DNA from: Pontibacter anaerobius
Lineage (GTDB): Bacteria; Bacteroidota; Bacteroidia; Cytophagales; Hymenobacteraceae
Reading direction: 5' to 3'
Length of the DNA: 64,000 nt
Assembly: GCF_026241195.1 (NCBI RefSeq)
Contig: NZ_JAPFQO010000011.1
Coordinates: 124,001-188,000, forward strand
Of this stretch, positions 36,871 through 58,031 are shown piece after piece (within the stretch, counting starts at the first letter, position 1; every line of letters begins with the position of its first letter). The notes below the pieces were generated by a model. The model saw only the letters and a program-made list of their open reading frames with translations. It was not told the DNA's origin and made no database searches. The position numbers were made by a program, and so were the translations under genes.

Positions 36871-36896
36871 TTTGATGAATTATTTCCTTACTTTTG
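36871..36896 (+). promoter_or_regulatory. rpsA promoter candidate
   Basis: A -7 element TACTTTTG lies at 36889-36896, identical to those of the genes at 56382 and 63241. A TTTG at 36871-36874 is present but only 14 bp away, shorter than the usual 19, so the -33 assignment is uncertain. A transcript would start near 36903, just before the leader structure. Confidence 0.6.
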
Positions 36897-36908
36897 CGGT
36901 TCATTCGA

Positions 36909-36990
36909 TTGAGTGAGCCCGGGCGTAAGAGCCGGGGTATGTATAACTAAACCAAACCGGCTACATTGCTCTAAGCCGGTGGCTACTCAA
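36909..36990 (+). ncRNA. Structured mRNA leader of rpsA (three-way junction)
   Basis: TTGAGT at 36909-36914 and AGCC at 36916-36919 (one bulged G between) pair with ACTCAA at 36985-36990 and GGCT at 36981-36984, a 10-bp closing helix. It encloses a small GGC/GCC hairpin at about 36922-36933 and a 7-bp hairpin ACCGGCT/AGCCGGT at 36956-36962 and 36974-36980 that stacks directly on the closing helix. The element ends 16 nt before the ATG. Autoregulation by S1 binding is the obvious hypothesis. Confidence 0.65.
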
Positions 36991-37006
36991 GAGCAGGAAA
37001 AACAAT

Positions 37007-38893
37007 ATGAGTAATTCTCCAGAAAATTTCGACTGGGACAAGTTTGAGTCTCAGGGTTTCGGTGCTGGCTACAGCAAAGCTGAGAAAGCCGAAATGGAAA
37101 AAATGTATGACGACACCCTGACTACCGTACAGGAGCAGGAGGTTGTTACCGGAACTGTTGTAGGTGTTACTGATCGTGACGTAATCCTGAACATCGGTTT
37201 CAAATCTGATGGCCTTGTGTCTATCTCTGAATTCAGAGATATGCCCGACCTTAAGCCAGGCGATCAGGTAGAAGTATTTATTGAAGACCAGGAAGACCCG
37301 AACGGTCAGCTTATCTTGTCCCGCAAGAAGGCGAAAATCGTTAGTGCCTGGGCTAAGATTTACGACGCACTTGAGAACGACAACGTTCTGGAGGGTGTTG
37401 TTAAGAGAAGAACCAAGGGTGGTCTTATCATGGATATCCATGGTGTGGAGGCCTTCTTGCCAGGATCTCAGATCGACGTGAAGCCGATCCGCGACTTCGA
37501 CGTGTTCGTAGGCAAGAAAATGGAAGTGAAAGTTGTGAAAATCAACGCCGCTTTCGACAACGTGGTTGTATCTCACAAAGTACTTATCGAGAAAGACCTG
37601 GAGCAGCAGCGTGCCGCTATCCTGAACAACTTGGAAAAAGGTCAGGTTCTGGAAGGCGTTATCAAGAACATGACAAACTTCGGTGTGTTCATCGACCTTG
37701 GTGGCGTAGACGGTCTGCTTCACATCACAGATATTTCTTGGGGCCGCATCAACCACCCAGAGGAAGTATTGCAGCTTGACCAGAAGGTGAACGTGGTAGT
37801 TCTTGACTTTGATGAAGACAAGAAGCGTATCTCCTTGGGCATGAAGCAGCTTACACCGCACCCTTGGGATGCGCTTCCTGCTGAGATCGAGGTTGGCTCT
37901 AAAGTTAAAGGCAAAATCGTTAACGTGGCTGACTACGGTGCATTCCTGGAACTGATGCCAGGCGTAGAAGGTCTGATCCACGTTTCTGAAATGTCTTGGT
38001 CACAGCACCTGCGTAACCCACAGGACTTCATCAAGCAAGGCGACGAGGTAGAGGCAGTAGTGCTGACACTGGACCGCGAAGAGCGTAAAATGTCTTTGGG
38101 CATTAAGCAGCTTACTGAAGATCCATGGACGAAGGAGGATGTGTTGACGAAGTACGCTATCGGCACGAAGCACACTGGTATCGTTCGTAACCTGACAAAC
38201 TTCGGTCTGTTCCTGGAGCTGGAAGAAGGTGTTGACGGTCTGGTACACGTATCTGACCTGTCTTGGACTAAGAAGATCAAGCACCCATCTGAGTTCGTGA
38301 AAGTTGGCGAGAACCTGGACGTAGTTGTTCTGGAGCTGGACGTTCCTAACAGAAGACTGGCGCTTGGCCACAAGCAGCTGGAGGAGAACCCTTGGGATAC
38401 GTTCGAGTCTGTGTTCAACATTGGTTCTGTGCACAAAGCTACAGTTCTTGAGAAATCAGACAGAGGCGCGACACTGGAGCTGCCTTACGGCATCGAAGGT
38501 TTCACTTTCCCTAAAGGTCTGGTGAAAGAAGACGGCTCTCAGGTTGAGGCAGGTGAGACACTTGACTTCAAAGTAACTGAGTTCTCTAAAGACGATCGTA
38601 AGATCATCCTTTCGCACACTGCTACTCACTCTGAAGTAGAGTCTTCTAGAGCTGCAAGAGCTACTAAGAAAGCTACTCCTGCTACAGGTGAGAAGAAAGA
38701 GAAAGCTCCTAAGGTTCAGAAAGAAGTAGAGAACAAGTCTACTCTTGGTGACCTGGATGCACTTTCTGCCCTGAAAGAGCAGATGCTGGAGAATGAGAAA
38801 GAGGCTGGTGTTAAGAAGTTAGAGGCTGCTGCCGCAAAAAAGGCAAAAGACACTAACGAAGACGAAGCTTCTGAAGAAGAGAACAACGCTTAA
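37007..38893 (+). CDS. rpsA: 30S ribosomal protein S1
   Basis: 628 residues containing six S1/OB-fold domains from about residue 45 to 545. The last four are near-identical repeats with GVFIDLGGVDGLLHITDISW, FLELMPGVEGLIHVSEMSW and FLELEEGVDGLVHVSDLSW. The N-terminal extension (about 40 residues) and an acidic/lysine-rich C-terminal tail (from about 545) are typical of Bacteroidota S1. It unwinds and docks mRNAs on the 30S subunit, which matters in a phylum with little use of Shine-Dalgarno pairing. Codon choice looks optimised, and the word AAGTATA is absent from this gene. A strong terminator follows. Confidence 0.97.
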   Translation: MSNSPENFDWDKFESQGFGAGYSKAEKAEMEKMYDDTLTTVQEQEVVTGTVVGVTDRDVILNIGFKSDGLVSISEFRDMPDLKPGDQVEVFIEDQEDPNGQLILSRKKAKIVSAWAKIYDALENDNVLEGVVKRRTKGGLIMDIHGVEAFLPGSQIDVKPIRDFDVFVGKKMEVKVVKINAAFDNVVVSHKVLIEKDLEQQRAAILNNLEKGQVLEGVIKNMTNFGVFIDLGGVDGLLHITDISWGRINHPEEVLQLDQKVNVVVLDFDEDKKRISLGMKQLTPHPWDALPAEIEVGSKVKGKIVNVADYGAFLELMPGVEGLIHVSEMSWSQHLRNPQDFIKQGDEVEAVVLTLDREERKMSLGIKQLTEDPWTKEDVLTKYAIGTKHTGIVRNLTNFGLFLELEEGVDGLVHVSDLSWTKKIKHPSEFVKVGENLDVVVLELDVPNRRLALGHKQLEENPWDTFESVFNIGSVHKATVLEKSDRGATLELPYGIEGFTFPKGLVKEDGSQVEAGETLDFKVTEFSKDDRKIILSHTATHSEVESSRAARATKKATPATGEKKEKAPKVQKEVENKSTLGDLDALSALKEQMLENEKEAGVKKLEAAAAKKAKDTNEDEASEEENNA

Positions 38894-38920: not shown

Positions 38921-38949
38921 AAAGCCCCGGAGCAATCCGGGGCTTTTTT
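38921..38949 (+). terminator. rpsA terminator
   Basis: AAAGCCCCGG at 38921-38930 pairs with CCGGGGCTTT ending at 38946, with a 6-nt loop (AGCAAT) and a following T run. It lies 27 bp past the rpsA stop. Confidence 0.93.
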
Positions 38950-40360: not shown

Positions 40361-40431
40361 GGTAACGTGGCCGAGTGGCTAGGCTCAGCTCTGCAAAAGC
40401 TGCTACAGCGGTTCGAATCCGCTCGTTACCT
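40361..40431 (+). tRNA. tRNA-Cys (GCA anticodon)
   Basis: All helices can be drawn. The acceptor is GGTAACG/CGTTACC. The D stem is GCC/GGC. The anticodon stem CAGCT/AGCTG has loop CTGCAAA, giving anticodon GCA, and the T stem AGCGG/CCGCT has loop TTCGAAT. The discriminator base is T, as expected for cysteine tRNAs. CCA is not encoded. Confidence 0.96.
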
Positions 40432-40787: not shown

Positions 40788-43415
40788 ATGAAAATTATAG
40801 ATTTGCGCATCATGCGCGGGCCAAACTACTGGTCAGTTAAGCACCCTAAACTTATCGTTTTAAAACTGGCGCTTGATGAGCTTAGCCAGAAATCCACTAA
40901 CGAGGTTCCCCATTTTTTGTCACGCTTAAAGAAAATGTTCCCGGGCATGATGCGCCACCGTGCGGGGGAGGGCGTAGAAGGCGGTTTTTTTAAAGTAGTG
41001 CAGGAAGGCACTACCTTCGGCCACGTAGTACAACATGTGGCGCTGGAGTTGCAAACCATGGCGGGTATGGAGAGCGGTTACGGCCGTTGCTACCCTGCCC
41101 CCGAAGAAGGCCACCAAACGGTAGTCTACTCATACCAGGAGGAAAGGGCCGGGGAGTATGCAGCCTATGCGGCCGTGCGTATTACAAAGGCTTTGGTAGC
41201 GGGCGAGAACTATAAAGTAAGTGAAGACATCACACGCCTACACGATATTAGGGAGGACGAGTACTTTGGGCCTAGCACCTATTCTATTGTGTCGGAAGCG
41301 GTGAGCCGGGGTATACCTTACATCCGCCTTAATCGCCACTCGCTGATACAATTGGGCTACGGGGTGCACCAAAAGCGCATACAGGCTACCATGACATCAA
41401 GCACCGCTTGCTTTGCTGTAGAGATTGCAGGCGATAAGAAAGCCACCAAAGACATTTTAGCAGAAGCAGGTATTCCTGTGCCGAAAGGAAGAACAATCTA
41501 TGAGCCGGAAGAGCTGAAGAAGGCTCTTAGCTGGTTAGGATTCCCGGTCGTGATAAAGCCGCTGGACGGCAACCACGGCAAAGGTGCTACAATCAACATT
41601 ACTAATTTAAAGGATGCACAGAAGGGCTTTGCGGAGGCCAAGAAGTACTCACCCGGCGTAATGGTGGAGCAATATATCCAAGGCTATGATTTCAGGCTGC
41701 TGGTTATTAATGGCAAGTTTGTGGCCGCTGCCAAACGAACACCCGCTATGGTAACCGGCGATGGTATTTCTACCATTAAACAGCTCATCGATAAAGAGAA
41801 CACTGACCCGAGAAGGGGCATTGGGCACGAGAAAGCGCTAACCAAGATAAAGCTGGACAAGCATACGGACAACATTCTCAAAAGCCTGAACCTGACCACT
41901 AAGTCGGTGCTGGCGGCAGGAGAGGTACTGTACCTTAAAAGTACAGCAAACATTAGCACCGGTGGTACGGCTACGGATGTAAGCGACCTGGTGGACCCTT
42001 ATAACATTCTGATGGCAGAACGCATCGCCGGCCTGATCGGGTTAGATATCTGCGGCATAGATGTGATGACCACTGACATTGCCATACCTCTAGTTGAGTC
42101 GCGCGGTGCAGTGTTGGAAGTAAATGCAGCGCCAGGGTTCAGGATGCACATTTCGCCGACTTACGGTTTGCCTCGCAATGTAGCCGAGCCAGTAGTGGAC
42201 ATGCTTTTCCCGAGAAACAAACCTGCCCGCATCCCGATCATCGCGGTAACAGGTACAAATGGCAAAACCACCACCACCCGCCTCATCTCCCACATGGTGA
42301 AGCACAAAGGATATCAGGTTGGCTATACTACCACTGAAGGTATTTACATTCAGGATAAGCTACTGGAGAAAGGCGATACAACAGGCTCTTACAGCGCCCA
42401 GTTCGTGCTAAAAGACCCGACCGTTAATTTTGCCGTGCTGGAGTGTGCCAGGGGAGGGTTACTGCGCTCCGGCCTCGGTTTTGAGCAATGCGATATTGGC
42501 ATTGTAACCAACGTGAGTTCTGACCACCTGGGGCTGGGAGACATTCATACGCTGGAAGAACTGGCGCGCCTTAAGGCTGTGGTTCCTAAGAGCGTGAGCA
42601 AAGATGGCTACGCTGTGCTTAATGCCGATGATGACCTGGTTTATGGTATGGCAGAAGGTCTTGACTGTAAAGTGGCGTTCTTTAGTATGGATGAAAATAA
42701 CCCGCGCATACTAAAGCACATTGCCAAAGGCGGACTGGCTGCAGTATTTGAGAACGGCTACATCTCTATTTTCAAGAATAGCTATAAGATCAGGATAGAC
42801 CGCGTGGCTGACGTGCCGCTGACGTTTGGTGGAAAGGCCAGGTTTAACATTGAGAACATACTTGCCGCTGCTTTGGCCGGATATATTTCGCATTTCGAGA
42901 TCGAGGATATTAAGACTTCGCTTCGCACGTTCATACCTTCTCCGAGCAAAACTCCGGGCCGTATGAACCTGTTTAAGTTTCCTACGTTTGAGGTCTTGGT
43001 AGACTACGCGCACAATGTTGGCGGACTGAAAGCCATCGGTGATTACATGAGTGCGCTGGAGGTAAGTAAAAAGGTAGGCATTGTGGCGGCAGTGGGCGAT
43101 CGGCGTCAAGAGGATTTCTATGAAATTGGCCGTGTGTCGGGGGAGATTTTTGATGAGATCATTGTGCGTCTGGATGCTGACCTGCGCGGCAAAACGGCAG
43201 AAGAGATTATGGGCCCGGTACTGAAGGGAATTGAGGATACCGCCCCGGAGAAGCAAGTGCACCAGATCCCACAGGAAATGCGCGCCATTGCCTTTGCGTT
43301 GGAAAATGCCGAGCCGGGATCCCTAGTTGCTATCTTTACCGAGGATGTGCACGAATCCGTGAAAATGGTAGAGAGTTTCAAGGTAATTCAGGATCGGAAG
43401 GTTTTTGTAGAATAA
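40788..43415 (+). CDS. cphA: Cyanophycin synthetase
   Basis: 875 residues, the usual size of CphA1. The N-terminal domain includes GHVVQHVALELQTMAGMESG near 75-95. The ATP-grasp domain (about 220-480) has VVIKPLDGNHGKGATINI and adds Asp to the backbone. The Mur ligase-like domain starts with the P-loop AVTGTNGKTTTTRLISHM near 487-504 and adds Arg to the side chain, with VLECARGGLLRSGLGF and FPTFEVLVDYAHNVGG as further signatures. It polymerises multi-L-arginyl-poly-L-aspartate as a nitrogen store. A cyanophycinase gene, commonly its partner, is not adjacent. Confidence 0.96.
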   Translation: MKIIDLRIMRGPNYWSVKHPKLIVLKLALDELSQKSTNEVPHFLSRLKKMFPGMMRHRAGEGVEGGFFKVVQEGTTFGHVVQHVALELQTMAGMESGYGRCYPAPEEGHQTVVYSYQEERAGEYAAYAAVRITKALVAGENYKVSEDITRLHDIREDEYFGPSTYSIVSEAVSRGIPYIRLNRHSLIQLGYGVHQKRIQATMTSSTACFAVEIAGDKKATKDILAEAGIPVPKGRTIYEPEELKKALSWLGFPVVIKPLDGNHGKGATINITNLKDAQKGFAEAKKYSPGVMVEQYIQGYDFRLLVINGKFVAAAKRTPAMVTGDGISTIKQLIDKENTDPRRGIGHEKALTKIKLDKHTDNILKSLNLTTKSVLAAGEVLYLKSTANISTGGTATDVSDLVDPYNILMAERIAGLIGLDICGIDVMTTDIAIPLVESRGAVLEVNAAPGFRMHISPTYGLPRNVAEPVVDMLFPRNKPARIPIIAVTGTNGKTTTTRLISHMVKHKGYQVGYTTTEGIYIQDKLLEKGDTTGSYSAQFVLKDPTVNFAVLECARGGLLRSGLGFEQCDIGIVTNVSSDHLGLGDIHTLEELARLKAVVPKSVSKDGYAVLNADDDLVYGMAEGLDCKVAFFSMDENNPRILKHIAKGGLAAVFENGYISIFKNSYKIRIDRVADVPLTFGGKARFNIENILAAALAGYISHFEIEDIKTSLRTFIPSPSKTPGRMNLFKFPTFEVLVDYAHNVGGLKAIGDYMSALEVSKKVGIVAAVGDRRQEDFYEIGRVSGEIFDEIIVRLDADLRGKTAEEIMGPVLKGIEDTAPEKQVHQIPQEMRAIAFALENAEPGSLVAIFTEDVHESVKMVESFKVIQDRKVFVE

Positions 43416-56381: not shown

Positions 56382-58031
56382 TTGAGACATCATCAAATTA
56401 TAAAGTATCGCTTAGCAACCCTGATAAAACTTTTTCTCTTTTGCCTGCTCGGGGGGCTTAGCCATGTTGGGGTAGCACAGAAAAGCCCTGTGGGCACCGA
56501 TGCGGTTAAAACCTCTGCTTTAGTAAAAGACTCTTCTACCGCGAAAAAGGTAACAGGAGCTGCGCCGGCCCCGGTTATAAGGCGTGTCTGGCGCACGCCT
56601 GCCATGGATGAGGCCATGTACTATTATACCTCGCTCCATTATCAGAAGGCGCAGGAGAAATTCAGGGTCGCGGCGGCAGCAGGGGAGTATGACGCCTATT
56701 ATTTTCTGGGGCGTATGCACCAGTACCGCGAACTGAAGTATGATTCTGTGGAGATAGACACGGTGAAGCAGATACAGAGTGCCGAGAAGTATTTTTCGGC
56801 CAACCGCGACTCCGCGCAATATTATTATCAGGCAGCACTGGACAGCGGTAGCGTGTTGGCGAACCTTGGCATGGCTGAGCTGATGACCTTGCGCAACGAG
56901 GATGACATGCAACGCTTTCTGCAGCGCATGCGCAATGCGGCCATCACCATAAGAGAGAAGGCTGTGGATGGCGATGCCTTTTGTAACCGTATTTTGGGCA
57001 GTATGTACTACACCGGTTACGGCGAAATGAAGAACCACTCGCTGGCCTTTAACTACCTGCGCCGCGCCGCCGATGCCAATGACGTAGTGGCTTACGCCTC
57101 ACTGGCAAACCTTTACCTGAACGGCGAAGGGGTGGAAAAAGACAAAGAAAAAGCTGCTTATTGGCTGCAAAAGGGCATAGAGGCCGGTGAGCGCGAGTCG
57201 ATGTATACAATGGCGCTTTTATATGAAGAAGGTACGCTTGGCGAGGTTAAGGTGGATGATGCCCGCAAACTGTACCGGAAAGCGGTGGCGAAAGGAAGTA
57301 TGAGTGCCTATGAACAACTGCTGTACATTAACCAGACACCAAACCAGAAAGTAGTGATCGGTGCCCTACACCGCGACCCTGAGATGATCAAGCGTGCCCT
57401 TGCTGCAGGCGGAGACGCCAATGCGCAGGACCAGCCAGATGATTACGAGGCTAATTTGCAGAAGCGTACGCCACTGATGCATGCCTTGTACATCCCGATG
57501 CTGCTGGAGGATTATGGTGTTGAGTATGAACCGGAGGCACGGCTGAAAGCGGCTAGTCTGCTAATCAAAAAAGGAGCAGACGTAAATGCGCAGGATATAA
57601 ATGGTAAAACAGCTTTGCATTATGTGGTGAGCAGTTCGCGCATCAGAACAGAGTTTTATGAGAATGAGCAGGTGCAACTGCTGGATACTTTGCTGGTGCA
57701 TGGGGCAGACCCTAACATCAAAGATAAGGAGGGGAACACGGTGCTCTCTCAGGCCCTGCACGCTACCATTGGGCAGCATATCGGTATTCTGGAGCTTGAG
57801 AAACTGCTGCAGGCCGGTGCCAACCCCAACGTGGTAAACAACGAGGGCAAGACGCCGCTTATGCTCGCCTGCGAGATAGATGCGAACTACGAAATCATAC
57901 TTGCGCTGCTTCAAGCCAATGCTGACGTTAGCGTAACCGATAATTCCGGTAAAGCTGCTATAGACTACACCAAGCACGAGAACGTGCAAAACATGTTGCT
58001 AGCTGCCGGCTCCCCAGAGAAGCAAGAGTGA
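56382..58031 (+). CDS. Exported Sel1-repeat plus ankyrin-repeat protein
   Basis: 549 residues with TTG as start at 56382. No in-frame ATG is near, the signal sequence needs this start, and a consensus promoter lies 30 bp upstream. The signal peptide is about 1-33 (LIKLFLFCLLGGLSHVGVAQ). TPR/Sel1-like repeats span about 70-320 (AFNYLRRAADANDVVAYASL, ANLYLNGEGVEKDKEKAAYW). Ankyrin repeats span about 335-540 (KGADVNAQDINGKTALHYVV, HGADPNIKDKEGNTVLSQAL, AGANPNVVNNEGKTPLMLAC). Both modules mediate protein contacts. A periplasmic or surface location is inferred. The binding partner is unknown. Confidence 0.85.
   Translation: MRHHQIIKYRLATLIKLFLFCLLGGLSHVGVAQKSPVGTDAVKTSALVKDSSTAKKVTGAAPAPVIRRVWRTPAMDEAMYYYTSLHYQKAQEKFRVAAAAGEYDAYYFLGRMHQYRELKYDSVEIDTVKQIQSAEKYFSANRDSAQYYYQAALDSGSVLANLGMAELMTLRNEDDMQRFLQRMRNAAITIREKAVDGDAFCNRILGSMYYTGYGEMKNHSLAFNYLRRAADANDVVAYASLANLYLNGEGVEKDKEKAAYWLQKGIEAGERESMYTMALLYEEGTLGEVKVDDARKLYRKAVAKGSMSAYEQLLYINQTPNQKVVIGALHRDPEMIKRALAAGGDANAQDQPDDYEANLQKRTPLMHALYIPMLLEDYGVEYEPEARLKAASLLIKKGADVNAQDINGKTALHYVVSSSRIRTEFYENEQVQLLDTLLVHGADPNIKDKEGNTVLSQALHATIGQHIGILELEKLLQAGANPNVVNNEGKTPLMLACEIDANYEIILALLQANADVSVTDNSGKAAIDYTKHENVQNMLLAAGSPEKQE

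Follow-up and report, generated by a model that had tools for sequence, protein, structure and literature searches.

The rpsA mRNA of Pontibacter anaerobius carries a leader with a predicted H-type pseudoknot shortly before the start codon, and this fold of the rpsA leader is well supported by sequence comparison for most of the examined members of the order Cytophagales. We propose that the 5′ part of the mRNA is probably a cis-acting operator through which ribosomal protein bS1 would control its own synthesis. Comparison among relatives shows the pseudoknot itself, where it lies, that it is conserved and that it is linked to rpsA. The locus was studied in a window of 64,000 nucleotides, which is the whole stretch of DNA analysed, and all coordinates below refer to this window.

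The rpsA transcription unit

The rpsA gene (37007–38893, + strand) starts with an ATG at 37007 and encodes a 30S ribosomal protein S1 of 628 amino acids, which matches NF004953 with 893 bits (cut-off 720) and contains six S1 domain stretches (PF00575). A sequence-only reading of the locus had placed a –7 promoter element in front of the gene and had let a structured leader begin there. The promoter box, TACTTTTG (36889–36896, +), was read in the sequence and recurs in relatives. We take TAnnTTTG to be the Bacteroidota-type –7 promoter consensus and assign TACTTTTG to it. TAnnTTTG is present 60–190 nt before the rpsA ATG in all 36 genus members and in 98 of 113 other Cytophagales genomes, compared with a chance rate of 8.5% in shuffled upstream regions; its median distance upstream is 116 nt in the genus and 111.5 nt in the other genomes of the order. 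Both the element and the structured rpsA leader beginning at its own promoter are real and conserved, the transcript start itself being predicted. Downstream of rpsA, a terminator-like hairpin followed by a T run (38921–38949, +) was read from the sequence. Because of its own promoter and this hairpin, rpsA appears to form a one-gene transcription unit, and S1 would thus be the natural ligand of the leader.

Architecture and covariation of the leader

For the genus and its near relatives, we used an alignment of 48 leaders, 42 of them distinct (alignment A2; L192 and L193 were omitted as copies of G027 and G003). At, or adjoining, the predicted transcript start lies a 5′ hairpin, P1 (36901–36906 with 36911–36916, +), with 100% of cells paired and two-sided changes at three of its six pairs. 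It is followed by a variable hairpin, P2 (36917–36938, +), which is part of the predicted fold of 36900–37040, pairs 36917–36920 with 36935–36938 and 36922–36924 with 36931–36933, and differs in sequence and length among genus members. A single-stranded segment (36939–36955, +) then leads to the pseudoknot; it is conserved in the genus (A2), and an AAC..AAA pattern occurs in this segment in 48 of 113 order genomes.

The pseudoknot itself consists of stem A (36956–36962 with 36974–36980, +; 89.8% of cells paired, two-sided changes at five of seven pairs) and of stem B, in which bases 36966–36972 of the hairpin loop pair with 36990–36996 (+; 96.6% of cells paired, two-sided changes at two of seven pairs). 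In the genus alignment, loop 3 (36981–36989, +) runs from stem A to the 3′ strand of stem B; GUA is found within the first 8 nt 3′ of stem A in 70 of 113 order genomes. An A-rich spacer of 10 nt (36997–37006, +) separates the pseudoknot from the ATG. At the 105 loci where the pseudoknot is clear, stem B ends a median of 10 nt before the ATG (interquartile range 8–12, range 4–20), and the median lengths are 7 bp for stem A, 7 bp for stem B and 8 nt for loop 3. The element has the arrangement of an H-type pseudoknot, a hairpin loop pairing with bases 3′ of the hairpin, and both stems are supported by covariation and by the swap test described below.

Taken together, the 5′ hairpin and stems A and B are paired in 95.2% of cells in A2. 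Ten of the 20 pairs are changed on both sides (shuffled mean 4.0), with two-sided changes in 33 cells (shuffled mean 9.7), and none of 500 shuffles matched these three helices on any of five measures. Slid versions of the helices pair in at most 51.7% of cells. Since related sequences can beat shuffles without any structure, the wider tests presented below weigh more than this alignment.

Alternative folding as a three-way junction

The sequence-only reading had drawn a different fold, a three-way junction closed by a 10-bp helix with one bulge that ends 16 nt before the ATG. This helix does exist in the window sequence (36909–36990, +), where 36909–36914 and 36916–36919 can pair with 36981–36990. 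It is a fair reading of a single sequence, because the best nested fold of the leader alone (36901–37006, –33.4 kcal/mol) includes it, with pair probabilities of 0.54–0.96; the nested alternative of 5′ hairpin, P2 and stem A, with stem B omitted, reaches –30.9 kcal/mol. The nested prediction of the closing helix varies with the chosen sequence ends. In the MFE fold of 36900–37040 (z –1.99; equalled by six of 200 shuffles) its place is taken by the 5′ hairpin together with the hairpin of stem A, and the MFE fold of 36880–37010, a segment that includes the promoter, pairs promoter bases (z –3.14). Stem B, the stacks of which amount to –12.6 before any pseudoknot penalty, is invisible to nested folding programs.

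Covariation in relatives, which the same reading had named as a check, did not bear out the closing helix. In A2, 58.8% of its cells are paired versus a shuffled mean of 59.3% (445 of 500 shuffles as high), its covariation score is equalled by 473 of 500 shuffles, and two-sided changes are not in excess. In the covarying fold, the 5′ strand of this helix serves the 5′ hairpin; loop 3 and one pseudoknot base make up its 3′ strand. The helix competes with two elements for which covariation is seen, the 5′ hairpin and the pseudoknot. We rejected it as a conserved element and regard it as extremely improbable that the three-way junction is the functional leader, although the window sequence and the nested MFE fold of 36901–37006 both contain its closing helix. 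Of the earlier description, the structure before rpsA has stood; the fold drawn for it was wrong, and the pseudoknot had been overlooked.

Distribution of the pseudoknot in Cytophagales

Of the 125 other order genomes with an S1 match, 120 contributed the region upstream of rpsA (all but G062, G069, G120, G143 and G169). A finder for H-type pseudoknots was run on the last 75 nt ahead of the ATG and on 60 dinucleotide-shuffled versions per genome, and 116 of the 120 genomes were scored. Two cuts were used: strict, with none of the 60 shuffles as good, and loose, with at most three. Within the genus, the pseudoknot passes the strict cut in 34 of 36 members and the loose cut in all 36. Outside the genus, the corresponding numbers are 70 and 91 of 116, and among the named relatives 52 and 73 of the 79 scored, with L197, L198, L215, L227, L235 and L251 missing the loose cut. 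The loose cut is failed by 25 of the 116 genomes; these include four of nine from family f19, three of the nine genomes in the window's own family that lie outside the genus and four of seven from family f21, and the single f13 genome fails it as well. Family f21 has small genomes (0.7–1.6 Mb), and three of its seven scored members show the pseudoknot at the loose cut. In family f8, with genomes of the same small size (0.7–1.6 Mb), most members are without a full S1 match at E 1e-150.

Stem B was examined separately by a swap test, in which stem A was fixed first and stem B ignored (113 genomes, seven loci excluded). Pairing between each genome's own loop and tail has a mean of –9.40, compared with –5.78 (sd 0.20) for permuted tails, and none of 20,000 permutations was as good. 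With only one genome per family (21 families), none of 5000 was as good. Swapping loops and tails between the 113 genomes abolishes stem B. In 51 of the 113 genomes the own pairing is among the best 5% of all cross pairings, a number limited in part by the recurrence of loop motifs between families.

Within the window, the upstream regions of 51 genes were scored for pseudoknots, and that of rpsA ranks first (–29.2, the next being –26.2). The next-best upstream scores, –26.2 and –23.5, were observed at 56604 (+) and 62100 (+). Among 8524 tiles of 75 nt from both strands, 35 score at least as well as the rpsA pseudoknot, two of them being rpsA itself. Such a score is therefore not conclusive by itself; the claim of a pseudoknot rests on the comparative tests.

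All 36 genus members have the hairpin at or near the predicted transcript start. Across the order it is seen as an average, P1 having a mean of –9.4 compared with –5.8 in shuffled sequences, and it is individually significant in 38 of 98 genomes. Such a hairpin would be in agreement with a leader that does no more than shield an abundant mRNA from decay at its 5′ end. This explanation accounts for the 5′ hairpin but not for a pseudoknot that covaries and stands close to the AUG at a fixed distance, and we consider it very improbable.

Association of the leader with rpsA

An order-wide MAFFT alignment (A3), in which stem A was misplaced in several rows, was replaced by the cleaner alignment A4. 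From this seed of 16 rows we built model R1, which comprises stem A and its flanks without stem B. R1 yields one match each in 34 of 138 order genomes, 16 of which are its own seeds. By coordinates, 31 of the 34 matches lie directly at rpsA, and one more, in G165, lies at a split rpsA, giving a total of 32. The match in G147 is an rpsA leader truncated by the contig end, and that in G078 is a chance match with no notable open frame downstream. Of the 18 non-seed matches, 16 are at rpsA. R1 misses the window's own leader and those of Pontibacter, and its counts understate the distribution of the leader. Applied to 295 class-level genomes, R1 gave four matches, one of them from the order; the other three, with E values of 0.21–0.49, lie away from rpsA. 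With 32 of 34 matches in the 138 order genomes, the leader structure is tied to rpsA and not scattered.

This association bears on a rival explanation, according to which the pseudoknot would serve constitutively for the docking of 30S subunits that carry S1, without any feedback, as in the tisB standby model. S1 does bind pseudoknots, and a 5′ pseudoknot is reported to anchor the 30S subunit on the tisB mRNA (PMC7708055); in Flavobacterium johnsoniae, added bS1 is reported to have aided initiation on an mRNA without a Shine-Dalgarno sequence (PMC9976891). A general enhancer should recur, yet nearly all R1 matches (32/34) are at rpsA and none is at another recognised gene, an argument that is incomplete in that R1 detects part of the leader family. 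Moreover, stem B at about 10 nt from the AUG would block the 30S subunit rather than park it. We regard constitutive docking as unlikely and favour an operator.

The sequence-only reading had also suggested a search with Rfam covariance models, in which no family reached its gathering score at the leader. Over the window, the models of Rfam 15 identified only a tRNA at 40361–40431 and no leader family. Between 36800 and 37100, with E values up to 5, the only hit was a sub-threshold CRISPR repeat model on the opposite strand, and over the loci of 15 relatives two tRNAs and nothing else were found. The tRNA gene of the window (40361–40431) is located just upstream of a gene for cyanophycin synthetase (40788–43415, +; TIGR02068, 1196 bits).

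H-type pseudoknots near start sites can be riboswitches (preQ1) or S15 operators (rpsO), according to two reports (PMC7708055, PMC3858243), and the rpsA pseudoknot might accordingly sense another ribosomal protein or a small molecule. Against this stand the free variation of both stems, the absence of a loop motif of the known families and of an Rfam match, and the position of the pseudoknot before rpsA alone, in a one-gene unit. A ligand other than S1 is in our view quite improbable, if somewhat less so than a mere role in mRNA protection, and S1 remains the preferred candidate.

The position of the pseudoknot also touches the annotation of S1 proteins with a longer N terminus. In L121, L135 and L138, which were inspected without shuffles, the pseudoknot precedes the farthest in-frame ATG, and in L042 the R1 match extends as far as an ATG 204 nt upstream. 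It seems that the true start of such N-terminally extended proteins is marked by the pseudoknot, and the leader could be used to correct their start-codon calls.

rpsA leaders in other orders of the class

Among 65 class-level loci, 55 were scored with the pseudoknot finder, and four passed the strict (0/60) and 11 the loose cut (≤3/60), with a mean score of –11.3 versus –7.5 for shuffled sequences. In an earlier subset of 19 loci, none had passed the strict and one the loose cut. By eye, the class-level calls were read as no pseudoknot, several being plain hairpins with an accidental second stem.

In many class-level rpsA leaders, a plain hairpin is flanked by single strands, of AAC type on its 5′ side and of AUACAA type between it and the ATG. 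Before rpsA, an AACC-type strand, a covarying plain hairpin and an AUACAA-type strand were observed in L278, L283, L287, L290, L292, L293, L294, L286, L303, L307 and L313. In an alignment of 13 plain-hairpin leaders (A7), 85.7% of cells are paired versus 56.7% after shuffling, and none of 500 shuffles is as good; two further measures are weaker, with 21 and six of 500 shuffles as good. The rows of A7 were chosen by eye beforehand, so that these counts lean in favour of the plain hairpin. A model of this hairpin, R2, gave 16 matches at E <0.1 in 139 genomes, 11 of them seeds, all of which are located upstream of rpsA on the same contig. Thirteen lie within 240 nt of the S1 match, and those in G195, G305 and G196 are 294–416 nt upstream of it, distances that fit long N termini. 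Among the compared R2 matches above E 0.1, only that of G233, a seed, is at rpsA.

Elsewhere in the class, leaders thus show a plain hairpin or no visible structure, and the pseudoknot is therefore not generally needed for S1 control in this phylum. Plain-hairpin and pseudoknot leaders have similar flanks, and a shared origin would be a guess. Tentatively, and with somewhat less than even confidence, we consider that the rpsA leader of the order may be a self-titrating S1 sensor and at the same time part of a wider class leader in which the pseudoknot was gained or lost. We hold it equally tentative that, in such a joint reading, the wider leader would be a covarying hairpin with an AAC-type strand before it and a UAYAA-type strand after it.

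A putative S1 operator

Binding of S1 to the leader, translational repression and feedback are inferred here by analogy. S1 is reported to bind H-type pseudoknots, one of them SELEX-derived and bound with nanomolar affinity (PMC7708055), and the rpsO pseudoknot to be melted far better by S1 on the 30S subunit than by S1 alone (PMC3858243). In E. coli, S1 is reported to repress the mRNA that encodes it, with free S1 competing against S1 on the 30S subunit (PMC10931766). The remark of the sequence-only reading that Shine-Dalgarno sites are few in this phylum agrees with a report that ribosomes of Bacteroidia make no use of Shine-Dalgarno pairing (PMC9976891). Taken together, these four reports suggest a switch that free S1 would close and 30S-bound S1 would open.

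In such an operator, the transcript would start at or near the small 5′ hairpin and continue through the variable hairpin and the single strand into the H-type pseudoknot. The 30S subunit covers roughly –20 to +15 of an mRNA. The 3′ strand of stem B, at –17 to –11, would fall inside this footprint. The folded pseudoknot would fill the stretch needed by the 30S subunit, its second stem closing about 10 nt before the AUG. S1 bound to the 30S subunit would melt the pseudoknot, and translation would start; surplus free S1 would attach to the pseudoknot and to the single strands beside it, would leave the fold unmelted and would thereby keep the 30S subunit out. Rising levels of free S1 would thus lead to a falling S1 output.

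Relation to known systems and significance

The E. coli rpsA leader consists of hairpins separated by AU-rich single strands. Compared with this fold, as it is described, the leader of the window differs in being composed of a 5′ hairpin and an H-type pseudoknot, and no sequence common to the two was noticed. As in E. coli and other gamma-proteobacteria, a structured leader precedes rpsA, and control of one gene is expected. A further likeness to the E. coli operator is that it does not rely on a canonical Shine-Dalgarno sequence; there, free and 30S-bound S1 are reported to compete (PMC10931766). The rpsO operator of E. coli resembles the leader in having a pseudoknot in the ribosome-loading region that is melted by 30S-bound S1 (PMC3858243). 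It differs in that it belongs to the S15 gene, uses bases of the coding sequence and docks by Shine-Dalgarno pairing, whereas the pseudoknot of the window ends before the AUG and uses no Shine-Dalgarno sequence. The S1-binding SELEX ligand and the tisB standby site are also H-type pseudoknots in a similar size range (PMC7708055). Neither is an rpsA operator, and the tisB standby site is separated from the start site by about 100 nt.

The candidates of Eckert and Weinberg (2020) are leaders of ribosomal proteins found by comparative genomics as well, several of them in Bacteroidota (PMC7247131). In the text, "bS1" and "S1 leader" do not occur, and "ribosomal protein S1" matches only two S15 titles (PMC7247131). 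Our searches of the open-access literature yielded no description of an rpsA leader in Bacteroidota; subscription papers and preprints lay outside their scope. Like autogenous leaders in general, the element is a conserved 5′ UTR structure with two-sided changes in front of a ribosomal protein gene; in kind, it is probably one of these autogenous leaders, and our searches of the open-access literature did not find its fold for S1.

In cells with silenced Shine-Dalgarno pairing, S1 is regarded as central to initiation, and our searches of the open-access literature yielded no description of how cells of this type set their S1 level. A compact, covarying operator of a single gene would allow a direct test of free versus ribosome-bound S1 as the quantity that is measured. 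If our proposal is true, one protein would close the leader when free and open it on the 30S subunit, in a phylum that does not use Shine-Dalgarno pairing.
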